DNA of 20,075 nt, from positions 1 to 20,075 of the forward strand of contig CAMZGJ010000002.1 of the NCBI GenBank assembly GCA_947306375.1, written 5' to 3'. The DNA is from an uncultured Spirochaetales bacterium (GTDB taxonomy: Bacteria; Spirochaetota; Spirochaetia; Sphaerochaetales; Sphaerochaetaceae). Of this stretch, positions 478 to 16,223 are shown one piece after another. The position numbers were made by a program, and so were the translations under genes. Numbering within the stretch: position 1 is the first letter of the stretch; each line of letters begins with the position of its first letter. The notes beneath the pieces were generated by a model. The model worked only from the letters and a program-made list of their open reading frames with translations, was not told where the DNA came from and did no database searches.

Positions 478-507
478 TTGACAAGATGTTTCTGTTGGCA
501 GTAACAT
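478..507 (+). promoter_or_regulatory. Putative sigma70 promoter of the ABC transporter operon
   Basis: A perfect -35 TTGACA (478-483) is separated by 18 nt from TAACAT (502-507), which matches TATAAT at four of six positions. Transcription would start near 514, about 30 nt before the leader ORF. A small hairpin, GGTGC-GTT-GCACC, lies at 519-531, next to the leader ribosome binding site. Confidence 0.6.
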
Positions 508-544
508 CAGAAAAGTAAGGTGCGTTGCACCGGAGGATTGAATT

Positions 545-613
545 ATGTCAGGCAGAACTTACTACGCTTATTCTTATTATTACTCAAAGAATAAAGGGGT
601 ATGTGCCGCCTGA
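545..613 (+). CDS. Tyrosine-rich leader peptide of the transporter operon (22 aa)
   Basis: This is a short ORF from ATG 545 to TGA 611-613. GGAGG (532-536) lies 8 nt upstream, a good Shine-Dalgarno. Codons 6-13 read TYYAYSYYY when the preceding Thr is included, so there are six Tyr codons in eight (560, 563, 569, 575, 578, 581). The product has no other recognisable feature. It lies between a clear promoter and an intrinsic terminator placed ahead of the transporter genes, the layout of amino acid biosynthesis and transport attenuators such as those of the trp, his and phe operons. By that precedent, ribosome stalling at Tyr codons when charged Tyr-tRNA is scarce would decide whether transcription enters the operon. 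The ORF, its codons and the ribosome binding site are seen; translation and stalling are inferred. Confidence 0.7.
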   Translation: MSGRTYYAYSYYYSKNKGVCAA

Positions 614-647
614 GCATCAGGATATGCAAATAACAGAGCCGCACATA
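600..647 (+). promoter_or_regulatory. Candidate antiterminator pairing of the Tyr attenuator
   Basis: TATGTGC at 600-606, inside the last codons of the leader ORF, is perfectly complementary to GCACATA at 641-647. That second segment is part of the 5' arm and loop of the downstream terminator. The two pairings are therefore mutually exclusive. A further hairpin over the Tyr codons (568-575 with 587-594, 8 bp) and CCTGA-GCA-TCAGG at 609-621 could act as pausing or anti-antiterminator structures. A ribosome stalled at the Tyr codons leaves 600-606 free. One at the stop codon covers it and frees the terminator. Confidence 0.55.
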
Positions 648-670
648 GGTGTGGCTCTTTTTTTTATTTT
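635..670 (+). terminator. Intrinsic terminator acting as attenuator
   Basis: AGAGCCGCAC (635-644) pairs with GTGTGGCTCT (649-658) as a 10-bp stem with one G-U pair and an ATAG loop. It is followed by seven T, one A and four T. No other gene lies between the promoter and this terminator apart from the leader ORF, and the transporter genes follow. A regulatory role is therefore more likely than simple operon ending. A second small hairpin (CCTGTT-TAAT-AACAGG, 677-692) precedes the ribosome binding site of the next gene. Confidence 0.85.
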
Positions 671-715
671 GATTTTCCTGTTTAATAACAGGGTACTCTA
701 ACGGAGGAAAACAAT

Positions 716-1675
716 ATGAAGAAAGTTTTTTTGGTTCTGACCATTGCTGTCTGCCTTGTTGCATCTGTTTTTGCAGGCGGAGCTTCAGAGAAAAAGACAG
801 CCCCCGGCACATTCAGGGTCGGAGTTGTCCAGCTTGTCCAGCATCCCGCTCTTGATGCAGCCACAGAGGGCTTCATGAAGGCTTTGGTGGAACAGTTGGG
901 TGACAAGGTCAGTTTTGATGTCCAGAATGCATCCGGAGAGATCAACAACTGTGCAACAATAGTCAACGGTTTTGTCTCATCAAACACAGACCTTATCATG
1001 GCAAATGCAACACCGGCACTTACGGCTGCTGTTTCTGCAACAAACACCATTCCCGTTCTGGGAACATCCGTTACTGATTACGGCGTGGCTCTGGACATTG
1101 ACAACTTCAGCGGTCTTGTAGGCACAAACGTCAGCGGCACCAGCGACCAGCCGCCTCTTGACGAACAGGCCAGAATGATTTTGGAGATTTTCCCCGGAGT
1201 AAAGAAGGTAGGCATGCTCTACTGCAGTGCAGAGGCAAACAGCATCTTCCAGGTTGCAAAGGTTGAGGAAGTTCTCAAAGCAGCAGGCGTTGAGACAAGA
1301 CACTTTGCTTTTACCGACACAAACGACATTGCTTCAGTTACACAGAATGCAACACAGTGGGCACAGGTTGTATACATTCCCACGGACAACACGGCTGCAT
1401 CCAACACCGAGGCAATTGCCAACATCCTTGTTCCGGCAAAGGTTCCCGCATTCTGCGGTGAGCAGGCTCTCTGTGAAGGCTGCGGAGTTGCAACCCTCTC
1501 AATCAGCTACTACGACCTGGGCGTAACAACAGGCAACATGGCTGCAAAGATCCTCAAGGGCGAGGCCAAGGTTTCCGAAATGGCCATTGAATACGCTCCC
1601 GCCATCAAGATGTACAACGCAAAGATGTGTGAAGTCTACGGAATCAAGGCTCCGGCAGGCTACCAGGCATTCTGA
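716..1675 (+). CDS. ABC transporter substrate-binding protein (ABC_sub_bind / TrpX-like)
   Basis: This is a periplasmic binding protein of 319 aa, the usual length for the ABC_sub_bind family (COG2984). That family includes characterised tryptophan/aromatic amino acid binding proteins in Gram-positive bacteria. Residues 1-20 form a signal peptide with a hydrophobic core and a probable signal peptidase I site after VFA. No lipobox Cys follows, so a soluble periplasmic form is more likely than a lipoprotein. The mature part begins with the family-typical FRVGVVQLVQHPALDAATEGF and shows the two-lobe pattern, with PVLGTSVTDYG in the middle and VGMLYCSAEANS starting the second lobe. The start is ATG with CGGAGG (702-707) 8 nt upstream. 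It is the first gene of a three-gene operon behind the Tyr-codon attenuator, so tyrosine or a related aromatic amino acid is the likely ligand. The ligand is inferred, not read from binding-site residues. Confidence 0.88.
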   Translation: MKKVFLVLTIAVCLVASVFAGGASEKKTAPGTFRVGVVQLVQHPALDAATEGFMKALVEQLGDKVSFDVQNASGEINNCATIVNGFVSSNTDLIMANATPALTAAVSATNTIPVLGTSVTDYGVALDIDNFSGLVGTNVSGTSDQPPLDEQARMILEIFPGVKKVGMLYCSAEANSIFQVAKVEEVLKAAGVETRHFAFTDTNDIASVTQNATQWAQVVYIPTDNTAASNTEAIANILVPAKVPAFCGEQALCEGCGVATLSISYYDLGVTTGNMAAKILKGEAKVSEMAIEYAPAIKMYNAKMCEVYGIKAPAGYQAF

Positions 1676-1688
1676 TTGAGGTGTGAAA

Positions 1689-2615
1689 GTGGATTTTTTC
1701 GGTTCTTTACTTAATGCCACCCCGGGTGCTGTCTCACAGGGTATCATCTGGGGAATAATGGCCATAGGCCTGTACATAACATTTAAGATCATGGACATAG
1801 CCGACCTGTCCGTAGACGGCTCCTTTGCCACCGGCGGCGCGGTCTGTGTCATGCTTATCCGCGGCGGCTGCAATCCGTGGCTGGCAGTTCTTGTCGCCAT
1901 GTGCGCCGGCGGAGTTGCAGGCCTGATCACTGCACTTCTTCACACAAAGTGTGAGATTCCCGCCATCCTGTCCGGAATTCTGACACAGCTTGCCCTGTAC
2001 TCAATCAACCTGAGAATCATGGGCGGCCGTGCAAACCAGCCGGTCAGCGTTGACAAGTATCCGCTGCTGGTTTCCCAGCGCTATGTCCGTGAGCTTTCAC
2101 TGCGCAACCCGCTTCCGCTCATCATCCTGCTCACTGCAATTGTGATCGGATTCATGTACTGGTTCTTCGGTACCGAGCGCGGCTGCTCAATGCGTGCCAC
2201 CGGAGACAACCCCAACATGGCCAAGGCCCAGGGGATCAACGTCAAGAACAACATCATTCTTGCACTTGTTTTCTCCAACGCCATTGTTGCCTTCTCCGGC
2301 GCTCTGATTGCCCAGTTCCAGGGCAGTGCGGACATCAACATGGGACGCGGTGCCATAGTCATAGGTCTTGCCGCCGTCATTATAGGTGAGGTCTTCACAA
2401 AGAAGTTCTTCAAGAACTTTGCCCTCAAGCTCCTGGGTGTCTCAATCGGTGCAATCATCTACTACCTTGTACTGCAGGTCACTCTCCAGCTGGGTCTGAA
2501 CACCAACGACCTCAAGCTCATCTCCGCAACAATAGTTGCCGTCTTCCTTGCAATTCCCTACTGGAAGAAACTTGCAAGCCAGAAGGCCGGCAGGAAAGGA
2601 GGACGCAATGCTTGA
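1689..2615 (+). CDS. ABC transporter permease (TrpY-like, BPD_transp_2 family)
   Basis: This is an integral inner-membrane permease of about 308 aa with roughly eight to nine hydrophobic segments. It belongs to the branched-chain-type permease superfamily (COG4120 group), which partners ABC_sub_bind proteins. The cytoplasmic coupling loop is visible as MRATGDNPNMAKAQGIN, which matches the LivH-like pattern. The C-terminus is basic (KKLASQKAGRKGGRNA). The start is uncertain: GTG at 1683 is in frame, but the Shine-Dalgarno GAGGTG (1678-1683) would overlap it. GTG at 1689 sits 5 nt after that site and is preferred. The gene follows the binding protein by 13 nt and overlaps the ATPase start by 8 nt, indicating translational coupling. 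Confidence 0.85.
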   Translation: MDFFGSLLNATPGAVSQGIIWGIMAIGLYITFKIMDIADLSVDGSFATGGAVCVMLIRGGCNPWLAVLVAMCAGGVAGLITALLHTKCEIPAILSGILTQLALYSINLRIMGGRANQPVSVDKYPLLVSQRYVRELSLRNPLPLIILLTAIVIGFMYWFFGTERGCSMRATGDNPNMAKAQGINVKNNIILALVFSNAIVAFSGALIAQFQGSADINMGRGAIVIGLAAVIIGEVFTKKFFKNFALKLLGVSIGAIIYYLVLQVTLQLGLNTNDLKLISATIVAVFLAIPYWKKLASQKAGRKGGRNA

Positions 2616-3405
2616 AATCAAAAACATCTGTAAGACCTTCAACAAGGGCACCGTCAACGAAAAGGTTGCCATCAACAACCTCTCACTGACCCTCGAGGAC
2701 GGAGATTTTGTCACAGTCATAGGCGGAAACGGAGCAGGTAAGTCCACCATGCTTAACCTGATTGCCGGTGCCTTCCCCGTTGATTCGGGCTCAATCATAG
2801 CCAACGGCAAGGACATTACGCACCTTCCGGACTTCAAGCGCGCCTCAATCCTTGGCCGTGTTTTCCAGGACCCCATGATGGGTACCAGCGCAAACATGCT
2901 CATTGAGGAAAACCTGGCTCTTGCCAACAGGCGCGGCCAGAAGAGGGGACTTAAGTGGGGAATCTCCGACGCTGAGCGTGAAGATTTTAAAAAGCAGCTT
3001 GCTGCACTGAACTTGGGACTTGAAGACAGACTCTCAACAAAGGTGGGTCTTCTCTCCGGAGGCCAGAGACAGGCTCTGACTCTTCTCATGGCTGTTCTCA
3101 GGAAGCCCGACCTCCTGCTTCTTGACGAGCATACCGCAGCTCTTGACCCCAAGACTGCCGCCAAGGTCCTTGAGATGACTGACAGGATTGTCAGCAAGCA
3201 CAATCTCACAACTCTGATGGTTACCCACAACATGAAGGACGCCATTGAACACGGCAACCGCCTTATCATGATGGATGCCGGCCGCATTGTGGTGGATATC
3301 CGCGGAGAAGAGAAGAAAAAACTCACCGTGCCTTACCTGATAGATCTTTTCAGCAAGGCCAGCGGAAGCACAGAGGCCAATGACGCCATGCTTCTGAGCA
3401 AGTAA
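2608..3405 (+). CDS. ABC transporter ATP-binding protein (TrpZ-like)
   Basis: This is the cytoplasmic ATPase subunit of the operon, 265 aa. Walker A is GGNGAGKST (residues 39-47), the Q-loop region is GRVFQDP, the signature is LSGGQRQA (about residue 149), Walker B is LLLLDEH, and the switch His is in MVTHN. The DEHTAALDP variant, with His where most ABC ATPases have Pro, is typical of the COG1101 subfamily that pairs with ABC_sub_bind transporters. ATG 2608 is chosen because AAAGGAGG lies just upstream, the N-terminus MLEIKNICKTF aligns with normal ABC starts, and it overlaps the permease stop. The frame is open further upstream (ATG 2536), but that would lie inside the permease. A strong terminator follows 18 nt after the stop. 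Confidence 0.92.
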   Translation: MLEIKNICKTFNKGTVNEKVAINNLSLTLEDGDFVTVIGGNGAGKSTMLNLIAGAFPVDSGSIIANGKDITHLPDFKRASILGRVFQDPMMGTSANMLIEENLALANRRGQKRGLKWGISDAEREDFKKQLAALNLGLEDRLSTKVGLLSGGQRQALTLLMAVLRKPDLLLLDEHTAALDPKTAAKVLEMTDRIVSKHNLTTLMVTHNMKDAIEHGNRLIMMDAGRIVVDIRGEEKKKLTVPYLIDLFSKASGSTEANDAMLLSK

Positions 3406-11083: not shown

Positions 11084-11661
11084 GAATTACAGGCGGCAGA
11101 TACTGCGGCCGCAAAGTCATAATACCGGAGGGAAACCTTGAAATAAGGCCCGCCATGGACAGGATGAGGGAGTCTCTGTTCTCAATAATAGGCCCCATGG
11201 AGGGAATTGCATTCTGCGATCTCTTTTCAGGAAGCGGATGCGTGGGTCTTGAAGCCGCATCCCGCGGTGCAAAGACGGTGCATCTTGTTGAGCTGGACAG
11301 GGCCAAAAGGGAAATAATGGAGAGAAACATTTCCTGGGCTCTGGAGGACTGTGACATTCAAATCTTCTTTTCCAACGTACTGAAGTACATTCCCCGGTGC
11401 AGGACGGTCTATGACATAGTCTATGCGGACCCGCCGTTTCCCATGAGCGGAAAGCCCAACATACTGGAGCTTGTCCAGAGGAGGGGCATGGTTGTCCCGG
11501 AAGGACAGTTCATAGTGCACATACCGGCGGCCGAGGAGTCCCAGTGGCCGCAGTCATACAGGGACCTTGTGCTTACGGACACCCGCAAGTACGGAAGGAA
11601 CATGATCAAGTTCTATACCCGTATTAAACAATACCCTGGGAAATCTGATACAGAATGCTGA
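11080..11661 (+). CDS. rsmD: 16S rRNA (guanine(966)-N(2))-methyltransferase RsmD
   Basis: This SAM-dependent methyltransferase modifies G966 of 16S rRNA. It is 193 aa, of typical length. It starts MRITGGRYCGRKV, matching the family opening. The SAM-binding motif is CDLFSGSGCVGLEAASRGA and the catalytic loop is YADPPFPMSG (the DPPF/Y motif of N2/N6 methyltransferases). ATG 11080 overlaps the recG stop as ATGA and matches the family start; AGAAG lies 9 nt upstream. ATG 11071 would add only three residues. It is the last gene of the dnaE run. Its 3' end overlaps the convergent FAD-subunit gene by 38 nt, and no terminator is visible. Confidence 0.93.
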   Translation: MRITGGRYCGRKVIIPEGNLEIRPAMDRMRESLFSIIGPMEGIAFCDLFSGSGCVGLEAASRGAKTVHLVELDRAKREIMERNISWALEDCDIQIFFSNVLKYIPRCRTVYDIVYADPPFPMSGKPNILELVQRRGMVVPEGQFIVHIPAAEESQWPQSYRDLVLTDTRKYGRNMIKFYTRIKQYPGKSDTEC

Positions 11662-12523
11662 CAAACAGCCTTCTGGACCTCTCCCTCTGAATCGGGGTTG
11701 CCGACGGACAGGATTCCTCAAGTTTTTTCTCAAGTAGTTTTGCCATGTCCTCTATCTGCTGGGAATCAGGGGGGAAACTGAGGGATGAAAGCTGGTTTGA
11801 AAAATCCAGGTTCTGGAAGAAGCCGTTCTTGGGGAAGGCCAGGCAGAGGTTGGGGTGGGATATGCCGTTGGGCACCGGAGTATATTCAAAACCGAAGAAT
11901 ACGGTGCTGTCCATTTCCCTCATGGGGTTTCCCAGAGTTCTGAAAACCTGGATGTTGTTTGTCTTTGCCGGGATTCTGACCTTTGTAAGAATTGCCTTGT
12001 TCTCGTAGAGAAACACTCCCTCTGAGTTGTAGAGCTTGTTCACAGGAAGCCACATCTGGGAGCTTGTTATCTTGTGTCCCTTGAGGCCGCGCTTGGAGAG
12101 AAGCCTTATCTCAACCTGCGCTCCTATTGTGGAAAGTACGCAGCTGAGGAAGAATCTTGTGTCCGGGGTGCACAGGGCACCGCCAATTGTGGCCTGGGAC
12201 CTTACCATGGAGGAGGCTATGGATGTAATTGCCCTGAACGTCTCCTTGCCCATCAGGTATGAACCCGAGTTCAGAAGCTGCTCAATTGTCACACAGGCGC
12301 CGGCTTCAAGGTAACGGTCTGTCTGTGAAACCTTTGTCAGTTCCGGAATCTGGGTTATTGAGATTATGTCATCGCCGCTTCCGTCCGTGTAGAAGAAGGG
12401 GCGGGCCATTATGTAGCTGCCTCCGGCAAATATCCTGAGGGAGGGGTCTTTGCCCTTTTCCGTGAGCAGGTCCGCAAGGGATTTGGGGATGTGTATGCTG
12501 GGGGCCTTGATGTTATCTGCCAC
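11624..12523 (-). CDS. FAD-binding subunit of a molybdenum-hydroxylase-like complex
   Basis: This 299-aa protein resembles the FAD-binding medium subunit of xanthine dehydrogenase / CO dehydrogenase type enzymes (CoxM/XdhB family). The first FAD loop is RIFAGGSYIMARPF and the second is RSQATIGGALCTPDTRFFL, where most homologues have ATIGGNL and here Asn is replaced by Ala. A medium-subunit C-terminal region follows. GTG at 12523 is chosen as start because AGGAGG lies 7 nt upstream within the preceding gene. ATG 12577 would overlap that gene by 65 nt and encode a non-family N-terminus. It overlaps the 2Fe-2S gene by 11 nt and is the last gene of the minus-strand operon. Confidence 0.82.
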   Translation of the reverse strand: MADNIKAPSIHIPKSLADLLTEKGKDPSLRIFAGGSYIMARPFFYTDGSGDDIISITQIPELTKVSQTDRYLEAGACVTIEQLLNSGSYLMGKETFRAITSIASSMVRSQATIGGALCTPDTRFFLSCVLSTIGAQVEIRLLSKRGLKGHKITSSQMWLPVNKLYNSEGVFLYENKAILTKVRIPAKTNNIQVFRTLGNPMREMDSTVFFGFEYTPVPNGISHPNLCLAFPKNGFFQNLDFSNQLSSLSFPPDSQQIEDMAKLLEKKLEESCPSATPIQRERSRRLFVSILYQISQGIV

Positions 12524-13046
12524 TTCTCTGCCTCCTGTAGGTGTAGGCCAGCTCAACCACCTTTGCAATGTCGTCAATGTCCGTGCACTTGCAGATGTTT
12601 ATGCCCATTTCACGTTCCAGGTAGTCCCTGCTGTAGATTGAGTAGTTGGCCTTGTTTTCCGCGTCTCCCTTTATCATGGAGGAGGCCCTTGTCTGGTCGT
12701 ATCTGTTCAGCAGTCCGCCGATGAGTATTGTCTTGGACGCGTAGCACTGGGAGCAGGGCTTGATTCCGGTCTCTGCATAGGCCCTTTCAATGTCATGGCA
12801 GAACCTTGTCTTGCGGAAGCCGGCGTAGGTAAGGATGGCAGCTCCGTTTGCCCTGAAGGCGGGAATCAGGCAGGAAAGCCTTGCCGCTCCGTTTATCAGC
12901 ACAATGCAGTTTCCGCAGCCGGCGTCAAGGCAGCCGTGGTTTCTGACAAAGCTGTCTGACAGCTCCTCCAGAATTCTGTTGAGCGGTTTGTTTGCGTTCA
13001 CTACCATGCTCTGCTGTGTGCCGTCTATGGTGCAGTTCAGTTTCAT
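12513..13046 (-). CDS. 2Fe-2S subunit of a molybdenum-hydroxylase-like complex
   Basis: This 177-aa protein has the two [2Fe-2S] domains of the small subunit (CoxS/XdhC-type). The N-terminal plant-ferredoxin-type cluster has C-x4-C-G-x-C-x11-C (CLDAGCGNC then RLSC), the canonical spacing. The C-terminal helical domain has the pairs CSQC and CKC, matching the usual C-x2-C and C-x-C. The surrounding sequence is divergent: QCGxCTPG in most homologues is PCSQCYASKT here. All eight cluster ligands appear present, so electron transfer should be intact. The ATG overlaps the upstream large-subunit stop as ATGA, and the 3' end overlaps the FAD-subunit start, indicating translational coupling of all three. 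Confidence 0.85.
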   Translation of the reverse strand: MKLNCTIDGTQQSMVVNANKPLNRILEELSDSFVRNHGCLDAGCGNCIVLINGAARLSCLIPAFRANGAAILTYAGFRKTRFCHDIERAYAETGIKPCSQCYASKTILIGGLLNRYDQTRASSMIKGDAENKANYSIYSRDYLEREMGINICKCTDIDDIAKVVELAYTYRRQRSGR

Positions 13047-14983
13047 TTGTCTTCCGTCCTTGCGTTGCTTGTTTCCCGTTCAATATCCTCAACGGTCACG
13101 GGAATCTCCGAGACCGTGCAGCCCAGAGCCTGCCCCAGGGCCCGGCAGGCTGCGGAGATTGTAAGTCCCCTTATCAGGGCTGAAACGGAACCGACCCTGA
13201 TTTCCGGATTCACAACGGTTACAATATCCACATCAAAGTATTTGTCTGAGCAGGGGAAGAACTTCCTTACAATTGTAGCCAGCTCCTGCTTTGCCTTGTA
13301 TTCAAGTCTTGCCAGGTCATAGACCTTTCCCACGGAGAGCCTGATGCATGCCTTTCTGATAACCAGCTCAAAGAGCAGAGGATCCACCTCAAGCTCAAGG
13401 GAGACCGCGCCGCAGGAGTGGGAGGCAAAAAGGATGTTTTTGTCTGTCTTGTCAAAGGAAAGCTTCTCGCTCAAAGGCAGGGCTGCGCCGTTGCCTTTTT
13501 TCAATATAATGTTCTTGCAGGCCTTTTCCACAGTATATGGGAAGAAACTGACCGTTCTTGAAAGAGTGTAGGGGCCCAGGTCGTTTTCCATCTCCTCGTT
13601 GAGGTTTTCAAAGACAATATCCTCCATGGGCACGCCCAGGTTGTCATGGACAATTCCCTTGACAATCTCCACCATGGCCTTCTTGTATGCAAGGCTTCCT
13701 GAGATTACAACCTTGTTGTCCTCAGTCAGAGTCATGCGGGCGCTGTAGCCGAAGAGCTCTCCGTTCTTGCTGCTGAAGCCCTGAATGCCGTCTCCGGCGG
13801 CAAGTCCCACGCCCCTTGAGTATGAGAACATGGGAGTCAGATATGATTTCTGTATGTCTTTCTGAGAGTAGGCCGCATATAGTCTTGAGAAGGAAGAGGC
13901 ATCCGCGCAGTCTCTTATCACCTGTGCGTGCATGTCCTTGCAGTCTGACTGCCTTACGGACTCAATCTCCGCTCCGGAGTGCTCAATCTTCCAGTCCTGC
14001 GGGTTTGAAGTAAGCCCGGCAAGGTGCGAATAGTGGTTCTCAACCGCCGCAAGCGCCATTGAGTACCCCAGATCTCCGAAGAAGACCCCCGGAGCCCTTG
14101 AGCTTGAATACAGGTCAATGGTCACTTCCTGCGCCGGCACATGATAGATGGGAATACAGCCGGCCACCACGCTTCTTGCATACTCGGCGGTGTAGTGGGG
14201 GAAGGCCCCAAGGTCCACATCCACATGCGTTCTCTGGAAAACCGGCTGCCCGTCATTGCTCACGCCGGTGGAAATCTCAAACATAATGTCCGGCTGAATG
14301 CTCAACATGGGAACGTTGAACTCAATCAGCCTGCCCGAGCGTATTGCCGCCTGCGCGGCGATAACCGCAGCAAAAGAGGGCCAGAACAGAAGTTGGTCAT
14401 CCGGGGAATAAACGCTCCCCTCATGGATTATCACATCCTCTTTCCTCATTCCGGTAGCCCCGGCTATGCTCTTTTTGACATGAGCCGGCCACTGTGAGGC
14501 AATCTTTATATGCAGTTTTCCGTCAACTTCCCTTGCAAGCACCCTCTGTTCGGTAAGAAGCGCCTTTTCAAAGCTTTTGACATGGAACTTTGAGGAAATG
14601 ACCGTCAGCCCCGTTTCAGTCTCCGGGAACTCTCCCGCAGACCAGGTGGCTGAGTTTTCCTTCACCTTTCCGCTGTCTCCGTTACCCTCGGTGTAGACAA
14701 TGTTAATCTTTGAGCAGAAAGAGGCCAGGGTGTCGTTATCCTGTGCAAACACGGCAAGCACCGGCTGCCTTCTGTAGACAATCTTCTCATCCGACAGCAC
14801 GGGAATATCAACCTTTCCCACCCTGATTCTGTTTTCTTTCAGGTCCGCCCCGGAGAGAACCAGAATGTGTTCCGCATTGGGCATGGAGATGTCTGAGATT
14901 ACTGCGTCCACCCTCTCGGCAACAATCAGTCTGCCCACCAGGTGCTTGTTCTGTATATTGAAGATATCCGAAACATCAGGCAT
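13043..14983 (-). CDS. Divergent molybdopterin-binding large subunit homologue
   Basis: This 646-aa protein is recognisable as the large subunit of the xanthine dehydrogenase / aldehyde oxidase family. The N-terminal part reads SDISMPNAEHILVLSGADL and VLSDEKIVYRRQPVLAVFAQDN, as in the Ald_Xan_dh hammerhead domain. SSSRAPGVFFGDLGYSMALAAVENH matches the conserved R-APG helix. It is shorter than the usual 750-800 aa and starts inside the normal N-terminal region; an in-frame stop upstream of the ATG excludes a longer start. The Gly-rich GGGFG cofactor motif is replaced by HEGSVYSPDDQ. No GVGE-type catalytic Glu motif is visible near the C-terminus. Catalysis may be altered or lost, or the protein may have a different role. 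First gene of the operon; no Shine-Dalgarno, with a -10-like element 6 nt upstream. Confidence 0.72.
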   Translation of the reverse strand: MPDVSDIFNIQNKHLVGRLIVAERVDAVISDISMPNAEHILVLSGADLKENRIRVGKVDIPVLSDEKIVYRRQPVLAVFAQDNDTLASFCSKINIVYTEGNGDSGKVKENSATWSAGEFPETETGLTVISSKFHVKSFEKALLTEQRVLAREVDGKLHIKIASQWPAHVKKSIAGATGMRKEDVIIHEGSVYSPDDQLLFWPSFAAVIAAQAAIRSGRLIEFNVPMLSIQPDIMFEISTGVSNDGQPVFQRTHVDVDLGAFPHYTAEYARSVVAGCIPIYHVPAQEVTIDLYSSSRAPGVFFGDLGYSMALAAVENHYSHLAGLTSNPQDWKIEHSGAEIESVRQSDCKDMHAQVIRDCADASSFSRLYAAYSQKDIQKSYLTPMFSYSRGVGLAAGDGIQGFSSKNGELFGYSARMTLTEDNKVVISGSLAYKKAMVEIVKGIVHDNLGVPMEDIVFENLNEEMENDLGPYTLSRTVSFFPYTVEKACKNIILKKGNGAALPLSEKLSFDKTDKNILFASHSCGAVSLELEVDPLLFELVIRKACIRLSVGKVYDLARLEYKAKQELATIVRKFFPCSDKYFDVDIVTVVNPEIRVGSVSALIRGLTISAACRALGQALGCTVSEIPVTVEDIERETSNARTEDK

Positions 14984-15107: not shown

Positions 15108-16223
15108 ATGAGAAAAAAACATACCCTGAAGATAGGCGTTGACGTTGATGACGTCCTGTATTCCTGCAACCAGCATGCAATAGACCTTCTTTCACAGGAA
15201 AGAGACCTGGGAGGTCTCAGTATCCATGACATAAACAGCTGGGGCGCGGGAAGCACCGAAAGTGTTCTGGATGAGCGTCATGAGTACTTTTCCAGCCCTG
15301 ATTTTGTTAAAAACCAGCCCGTCATCCCCGGTGCCGAGGAGTTTATAAAAAAGCTCTCCGAAAAGGGGGAGGTATTCTTTGTGACGGCGGTGGGCGGCAC
15401 CTGCATGTCAGAGCGTGCCAAGCGTCTGCTCAAGGACTTTCCGGAGGTTCCGGAGCGCAATATAATCATAGGCTCAAGGAAAGACCTTGTTGCACTGGAC
15501 ATTCTTCTGGATGACGGGGCCCACAACATCCTGGGCTCATGCGCCAGATACCCCGTGCTTTTCCGCAGGCCATGGAACAACAACCTGACGGGTCTTCTTG
15601 CAGTCAACGGCTATGATGACTTTCTGCGCCTTGTGGACCAGATACGCGGCAACGGCGCGGAGGATATTCCCTCTCTTGCAGACGGCGGAGTGGTCTGTCT
15701 TGTGGGGCCCACCGGTGCCGGAAAGAGGGAACTTGCAGAGCTTCTGACAAAGAAGCACGGATTTGTACGTCCGGTAACAACCACAACGCGTGCAATGCGT
15801 GACGGGGAGCAGGGTCTTTACAACTTCACCTCCAAAAAGGACTTTGAGAATGCTCAGGACAGAGGGGAGTTTCTGGAGTTCACGGTTTACGGCGGACACT
15901 ACTACGGCTGCAGGGCGGATGACGTTTCAACAATAATGGAGCAGGGCAGGGTTGCCGTAATGCCTATAGACATCTGCGGTGCAATTGCCGTTAAGAACGC
16001 CTTCCCCGGCAGATGCGTCATTGCCTTCACTGACCGCTCGCGCAGGGCTGTTCTCAAGCACATAATAGGCATGGACTGCACAGAGGATGAGAAGGTTCTC
16101 AGGATACTGAGTCTGGACTCTGAGTTCCGCAACCGTGAGATCTGTGACCTGATCATAAACATGGACGGCGGCGCGGAGAAAGGGGCGGCGGAACTTCTTG
16201 AAGACCTGGGCCCGGTGAAATAA
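15108..16223 (+). CDS. Fusion of a HAD 5'(3')-nucleotidase-like domain and a guanylate kinase-like domain
   Basis: This 371-aa protein has two domains. Residues 1 to about 175 resemble the 5' nucleotidase, deoxy-type C family (HAD superfamily). The nucleophile motif is GVDVDDVLY (Asp12, Asp14), motif II is FFVTAVGG, motif III Lys is in GSRKDL, and motif IV is DILLDDGAHN. Residues about 190-371 resemble guanylate kinase: P-loop GPTGAGKREL (200-209), the GMP-binding TTTTRAMRDGE, then GEFLEFTVYGGHYYG. The P-loop Lys (206) is followed by Arg-Glu, where guanylate kinases have Ser/Gly then Ser/Thr, so ATP binding may be altered. One domain would remove phosphate from nucleotides and the other would add it to GMP, or one may be regulatory. 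It lies between the divergent molybdenum-hydroxylase-like operon and ligA (9-nt gap). Whether it is the cell's only guanylate kinase cannot be told here. Confidence 0.8.
   Translation: MRKKHTLKIGVDVDDVLYSCNQHAIDLLSQERDLGGLSIHDINSWGAGSTESVLDERHEYFSSPDFVKNQPVIPGAEEFIKKLSEKGEVFFVTAVGGTCMSERAKRLLKDFPEVPERNIIIGSRKDLVALDILLDDGAHNILGSCARYPVLFRRPWNNNLTGLLAVNGYDDFLRLVDQIRGNGAEDIPSLADGGVVCLVGPTGAGKRELAELLTKKHGFVRPVTTTTRAMRDGEQGLYNFTSKKDFENAQDRGEFLEFTVYGGHYYGCRADDVSTIMEQGRVAVMPIDICGAIAVKNAFPGRCVIAFTDRSRRAVLKHIIGMDCTEDEKVLRILSLDSEFRNREICDLIINMDGGAEKGAAELLEDLGPVK

Follow-up and report, generated by a model that had tools for sequence, protein, structure and literature searches.

A tyrosine-codon leader and terminator, probably a ribosome-mediated attenuator, ahead of a predicted tyrosine importer operon in an uncultured spirochaete

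Introduction

What does a short open reading frame (ORF) crowded with tyrosine codons do in front of an ABC transporter operon of an uncultured spirochaete? The window analyzed here, positions 1 to 20,075 of contig CAMZGJ010000002.1, carries such an ORF, followed by a terminator hairpin and then by genes for a substrate-binding protein (SBP), a permease, and an ATPase. Several described systems resemble this layout in part, as the accessible text of the papers cited presents them. The pheL, trpL, and his attenuators combine a leader ORF containing tandem control codons with an antiterminator/terminator switch, as in the window, but the cases described there concern other amino acids and lie on biosynthesis or synthetase genes (PMC11802643, PMC9413887); His leaders occur in Firmicutes (PMC9413887). 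The aroR leader of Corynebacterium glutamicum aroF is also ribosome mediated and has Phe-Tyr-Phe codons, but it is reportedly unresponsive to Tyr availability, serves a biosynthetic gene, and has no Tyr-only run (Neshat 2014, as cited in PMC11802643). The uORFC-13-1 motif of aroF likewise has a terminator behind a short ORF that contains one or more Phe codons, although in Acholeplasma and environmental sequences and on a biosynthetic gene (PMC8632094). The trpXYZ operon of Streptococcus suis, whose SBP is related to that of the window, is controlled by transcription attenuation too, but its T-box RNA itself reads the tRNA and involves no leader peptide (PMC9382623). Enterococcus tyrS shows tyrosine-dependent attenuation of the T-box type (PMC3315439). 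The original prediction for this locus knew of no described Tyr leader-peptide attenuator on a spirochaete transporter, and we found no Tyr-specific case and no spirochaete case in the accessible part of the open-access literature, which leaves subscription journals largely outside. The kind of mechanism is already known; the Tyr specificity and the spirochaete host are the features that we did not find in that literature.

Results

Attenuator-like elements ahead of the operon

The elements that precede the operon, and its three genes, are the following (window positions).

478..507, forward strand: sigma-70-type promoter TTGACA-N18-TAACAT, 10 of 12 consensus positions (consensus match only)
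532..536, forward strand: GGAGG, ribosome-binding site of the leader ORF, 8 nt 5' of the ATG at 545
545..613, forward strand: leader-peptide ORF of 22 codons, MSGRTYYAYSYYYSKNKGVCAA, recognized from its sequence and from relatives
548..613, forward strand: predicted ribosome-free helix, TCAGGC (548-553) with GCCTGA (608-613), enclosing 568-575/587-594
560..583, forward strand: control codons TAC TAC GCT TAT TCT TAT TAT TAC, six of eight Tyr
600..606, forward strand: antiterminator 5' strand TATGTGC, 16 nt past the last Tyr codon
635..666, forward strand: intrinsic terminator, stem 635-644/649-658, then a T-tract
641..647, forward strand: antiterminator 3' strand GCACATA, within the 5' arm and loop of the terminator
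716..1675, forward strand: SBP, PF04392; E249 and Y265 align with Glu-263 and Tyr-279 of CD0873
1683..2615, forward strand: ABC permease, PF02653 (domain match)
2608..3405, forward strand: ABC ATPase, PF00005 (domain match)

This architecture is real, and it bears out the original prediction of a promoter, a GGAGG, a 22-codon ORF with six Tyr codons in eight, and a 10-bp terminator with a T-tract; the promoter and ribosome-binding site are recognized by consensus match only. The terminator stem (635-658) lies between the leader and the first gene, contains six G-C pairs, closes a loop of four, and is followed by eight T residues. No second stretch with at least six Tyr per eight codons occurs in the six frames of the 20-kb window, and loci L042-L121 (1.45 Mb, both strands) contain one, which lies before an SBP gene (L116).

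Folding of the leader RNA, proposed as a check of the original prediction, gave a structure more stable (z, -3.44) than all 200 shuffles. Positions 600-606 and 641-647 are exact complements, as had been predicted, and the folds show that their pairing excludes the terminator. When the 5' part is hidden up to position 598 and the 3' end is set at 648-652, the window folds into a seven-pair antiterminator (-15.2 kcal/mol); when a ribosome occupies the stop codon, the terminator alone is left. In the fold without a ribosome, the terminator forms and the helix spanning 548-613 takes up five of the seven bases of 600-606 by upstream pairing. The 8-bp hairpin 568-575/587-594, which the original prediction expected when ribosomes are absent from the Tyr codons, is found in the minimum-free-energy fold, but it is the tip of this larger helix between the start and the end of the ORF, and its conservation is not visible in G001 and G002b, whose sequences were judged by eye. 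The complete terminator (-25.7 kcal/mol) is more stable than the antiterminator, a point against attenuation, so antitermination must be kinetic, decided during transcription.

Taken with the relatives described below, these features make it very probable that the element is a classical ribosome-mediated transcription attenuator that senses the charging of Tyr-tRNA. We infer that RNA polymerase would start near position 514 and that a ribosome would translate the 22-codon leader. With charged Tyr-tRNA at hand, the ribosome would reach the stop codon (611-613) and cover 600-606, so that the terminator would form and the importer would not be made. If charged Tyr-tRNA were scarce, the ribosome would stall on the codons at 560-583 and leave 600-606 free to pair with 641-647 before the 3' arm of the terminator exists; with the antiterminator formed, transcription would proceed into the SBP-permease-ATPase operon. 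On an RNA with no ribosome, the start of the ORF would pair with its end, 600-606 would be hidden, and transcription would stop.

Leaders in the spirochaete family

Orthologues of the SBP are present in 31 of the 139 genomes of the spirochaete family (E ≤ 1e-60). Judged by eye on the upstream DNA, 15 of 33 spirochaete SBP copies are preceded by an aromatic leader ORF plus a terminator, the one in G158 being the weakest. Another 16 of the 33 show no recognized leader in 260 nt or more of upstream DNA, which we count against attenuation, and two (in G013 and G067) have less than 120 nt upstream; G150, in which the SBP is split between contigs, is outside this count. The hairpins found close 5' of the SBP gene in G104, G105, G077, and G078 have no acceptable Tyr/Phe-rich leader. 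A TTGACA hexamer lies within 100 nt 5' of 12 of 14 spirochaete leaders and is absent for G011 and G009.

In the window's own genus, the leader of G000 and that of G002a are both MSGRTYYAYSYYYSKNKGVCAA; G001 has MFGRTSYYYYYSSNPAVVCAGQA, with one Phe outside the run, and G002b has MTKARFYFYFFISPEKGVCA. We rejected the identity of the first two as proof of selection on the RNA, because the permease is identical too. Permease DNA matches at 933 of 933 positions between window 1683-2615 and L002, from two genomes of one genus, beside an SBP at 91.4%, a pattern that hints at recombination.

A comparison of the leader across relatives, suggested with the original prediction, supports it: the Tyr codons, the terminator, and the antiterminator are kept within the window's own genus. 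One correction is that leaders with both Phe and Tyr codons predominate among the relatives; the window copy has six Tyr and no Phe. Three genomes contain both types on paralogues, with Tyr-only leaders at G002a, G020b, and G035b and mixed Phe/Tyr leaders at G002b, G020a, and G035a. Because the two types coexist in this way, the choice of codons looks maintained, and this split is the less expected part of our findings. G020 and G035 have two SBPs in tandem, each with its own leader, and the permease and ATPase follow the second. G002 has a second SBP with a Phe/Tyr leader (L031, 2405-2543, reverse strand), and the next ORF on the same strand encodes a 294-aa protein that, judging from the listed ORFs, is neither an ABC permease nor an ABC ATPase.

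Leaders in Clostridia and controls for chance

The best 80 of at least 585 SBP relatives in the named genome collection are 54 to 65% identical and come mostly from Clostridia or Bacillota. An aromatic leader plus terminator was flagged at 18 of 79 of these loci (L043-L121, one of them from Spirochaetales), again mostly in Clostridia, with MTNSCRSFAYFYYFYFFAER (L062) and MKLNRFIANGFYYYFYFESNGCLCCS (L066) as examples. In other genera and in Clostridia, the leaders repeat the layout seen in the window but are unlike in sequence. An automatic test, run on the window and loci L031-L121, took long ORFs preceded by a gap of 120 nt or more and asked for an ORF of 10 to 45 aa with five or more Tyr/Phe per ten codons and, within 90 nt, a strong terminator. 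It was passed by 16 of 46 SBP genes and by 1 of 304 controls; the 46 include near-duplicates, as L035 is the contig of L042 and the window and L041 share one leader.

Five genomes contain 32 matches to TAYTAYTAYTAY, two of them without a locus. None of the 21 loci other than SBP leaders resembled a short ORF plus terminator when these five genomes were inspected by eye, and in G000, G001, and G002 such runs were no commoner than the control, the same pattern reversed. In each of the five genomes, TAY repeats form a run directly 5' of a dnaN-like gene (G000:C38, G001:C80, G002:C61, G020:C22, and G035:C67; loci L149, L161, L148, L151, and L170), preceded in four by a TTTTTGTGG-like stretch. We take this to resemble a DnaA box with the DnaA-trio repeats of an origin, and we rejected the run as a leader since origin DNA is more likely.

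In a FastTree tree, the spirochaete and clostridial SBPs form one clade, apart from six other spirochaete SBPs. The tree needs two changes between spirochaetes and Clostridia, of which the well-supported branches force just one, and the SBP may have been transferred between the phyla.

Antiterminator pairing in 29 leaders

Thirty leaders were entered in a pairing test, and 29 of them (14 spirochaete and 15 clostridial) have a terminator, L116 being the exception. In each, we paired the 5' arm and loop of the terminator with the segment that separates the last aromatic codon from it and scored the result against 500 dinucleotide shuffles. G002a and L081, whose leaders equal those of G000 and L075, were left out, as were L058 and L090, flagged as leadered and with weak terminators. 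The antiterminator beat its shuffles at a P value of ≤0.05 in 19 of the 29 leaders, several of these 19 being closely related. For the window's own antiterminator, which excludes the terminator and which a ribosome on the stop codon would mask, 9.0% of shuffles were equally good (P = 0.09), which alone is not significant and is counted against attenuation; L119 gave a P value of 0.52. Terminators compared for pairing with their own versus foreign leaders gave a Fisher combined P value of 4e-4 over 12 groups, with relatedness handled roughly. In 15 of the 29 leaders, the core of the pairing starts 14 to 20 nt past the last aromatic codon, approximately the span that a stalled ribosome covers.

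Across the three distinct sequences of the window's own genus, each helix has one compensatory pair: U-A becomes A-U in the antiterminator and C-G in the terminator. The covariation scores were, however, matched by 166 and 176 of 500 shuffles, about a third. G001 has one broken terminator pair, which counts against the mechanism, and covariation from three sequences gives it support that is weak by itself.

Folds of the separate states follow the expected order in most leaders, though these counts are partly circular because the core was picked by complementarity. The antiterminator is present in 27 of 29 stalled-state folds (no core in G020b and G011), and the terminator is present in 28 of 29 folds in which the ribosome has reached the stop codon (L099 is the exception). 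Without a ribosome, at least three core bases are hidden upstream in 21 of 29 leaders. In 15 of 29 leaders, ribosome-free folds that end at the loop nevertheless have four or more core bases paired with the arm or loop of the terminator, which argues against a uniform picture, and the full ribosome-free fold has no terminator in four (L057, L070, L075, and L099). The resemblance to trp, phe, and his attenuation in the original prediction draws support from the layout of the relatives and from complementarity above controls.

Predicted substrate of the importer

The SBP has three sequence relatives in the PDB (E ≤ 0.001), and their names, CD0873, SP1069, and VC_1101, are those used in PMC6816091. 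An AlphaFold2 model (mean pLDDT, 88.1) has CD0873 of Clostridioides difficile as its top structural match, and the two proteins, of one SBP family, are 32 to 33% identical. According to the accessible text on CD0873, this protein binds tyrosine, Glu-263 bonds the tyrosine hydroxyl, and Tyr-279 blocks the binding of tryptophan (PMC6816091). Both specificity residues are conserved in the window protein as E249 and Y265 and across all 112 aligned members of the clade (33 of 33 from the spirochaete family, 79 of 79 others); residue 249 is Asp in six of six outgroup SBPs. Tyrosine is therefore the probable substrate, in keeping with the original prediction of tyrosine or a related aromatic, and most likely what the operon imports. 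The description "TrpX-like transporter" is misleading because the NCBIfam model for the tryptophan SBP TrpX (NF041285) scores 224.7 bits, below its curated cutoff of 390. The tryptophan specificity that the name suggests was rejected on that score and on the CD0873-type residues.

SBP residue 247 (window 1454-1456), two residues before the specificity Glu, is Cys or Val in six of six proteins behind Tyr-dominant leaders and Ala in 20 of 24 others. We treat this link to the leader as a lead, because column 33 separates the two groups slightly better and the comparison comprises between one (if branches are starred) and three independent pairs.

Tyrosine biosynthesis in leadered genomes

Of 12 leadered genomes, one (G158) has a prephenate dehydrogenase (PF02153) above the cutoff, versus 11 of 16 leaderless ones, with a Fisher P value of 0.002 that is too small because genera cluster and several genomes are 58 to 90% complete; G009 has a subthreshold match. 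The missing TyrA of G000 proves little, as that genome is 58% complete, and G001 (95%) is without TyrA too. Neither prephenate dehydratase (PF00800) nor the DAHP synthase family PF00793 was found in G000, G001, G002, G020, or G035. Since a Tyr-rich leader and a terminator hairpin precede a predicted tyrosine importer, the importer should turn on upon Tyr shortage, and an auxotroph that induces a tyrosine importer when tyrosine runs short would be a coherent picture.

Known RNA families and other genes in the window

Neither the window nor any of 17 chosen loci has an Rfam match at the gathering score, and the Phe_leader family (RF01859) scored 24.9 bits against a cutoff of 55 in a permissive scan of 440-720. 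Control by a T-box was rejected for the window: none reaches the gathering score there, none has an E value of ≤0.001 in G000, G001, or G002, and a regular expression for T-box motifs found none upstream of 80 SBP matches, some of whose upstream stretches are short. In G020 and G035 (L177 and L178; G020:C54 and G035:C123), a further SBP paralogue of 27 to 28% identity follows a T-box-like RNA that scores under the gathering cutoff. The specifier loop of this RNA reads UGG, for Trp, which suggests that Tyr/Phe importers may be under leader peptides in the same cell in which a T-box serves Trp.

Elsewhere in the window, 15108-16223 encodes a single protein in which a 5'-deoxynucleotidase domain (PF06941) is joined to a guanylate kinase domain (PF00625). 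A molybdenum-hydroxylase-like set of three genes occupies 11624-14983 on the reverse strand, its small-subunit Fe-S domains and one MoCo domain falling below Pfam cutoffs. An IS110-family transposase gene (PF02371) lies at the contig end (19021-20073, reverse strand).

Discussion

An arrest peptide would look much like the anatomy described here. A Tyr/Phe-rich nascent peptide would stall the ribosome in response to free tyrosine or another small molecule, following a logic for which TnaC is the model; induction would then come with excess, and any stall near the aromatic codons would yield the antiterminator. Outside the aromatic run, however, the leaders diverge widely, and within it the number and order of Tyr and Phe codons vary. 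They also tend to accompany the absence of TyrA and to precede an importer, which fits the sensing of shortage, and we consider arrest very unlikely. We give equally little credence to a constitutive terminator, with an ORF that encodes a small functional protein or arose by chance and an operon regulated elsewhere. The 16 orthologous SBP copies without a recognized leader and the shuffle result for the window's own antiterminator favor that explanation, but it sits badly with the excess of leadered SBP genes over controls, with complementarity retained across unlike leaders, and with the TTGACA hexamer before most spirochaete leaders.

A broader form of sensing deserves somewhat more weight, though it too seems improbable: the leaders may respond to Phe and Tyr alike, the operon may import any aromatic amino acid, and the Tyr codons of the window may be one mix among several. 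The mixed codons of most relatives fit this well. The absence of Phe codons from the window copy does not, nor does the presence of Tyr-only and mixed leaders on paralogues of the same genome; the CD0873-type Glu, invariant in the clade, also speaks against general sensing, although it is found in mixed-leader copies too. Attenuation by Tyr-tRNA charging remains our preferred explanation. More tentatively, since we hold it to be possible but rather doubtful as a whole, there may be a family of leader attenuators in two phyla on tyrosine-type importers, mainly in tyrosine auxotrophs, in which control codons and binding pocket would change together, the leader would label the substrate, and paralogues would be tuned differently.

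Ribosome-mediated attenuation appears to extend to spirochaetes and to tyrosine specificity. If this is true, leaders of this kind would offer a cheap prediction of substrate for poorly annotated ABC importers of uncultured bacteria, and the Tyr-only and Phe/Tyr leaders on paralogues would amount to a paired natural experiment in the evolution of control codons and transporter specificity.
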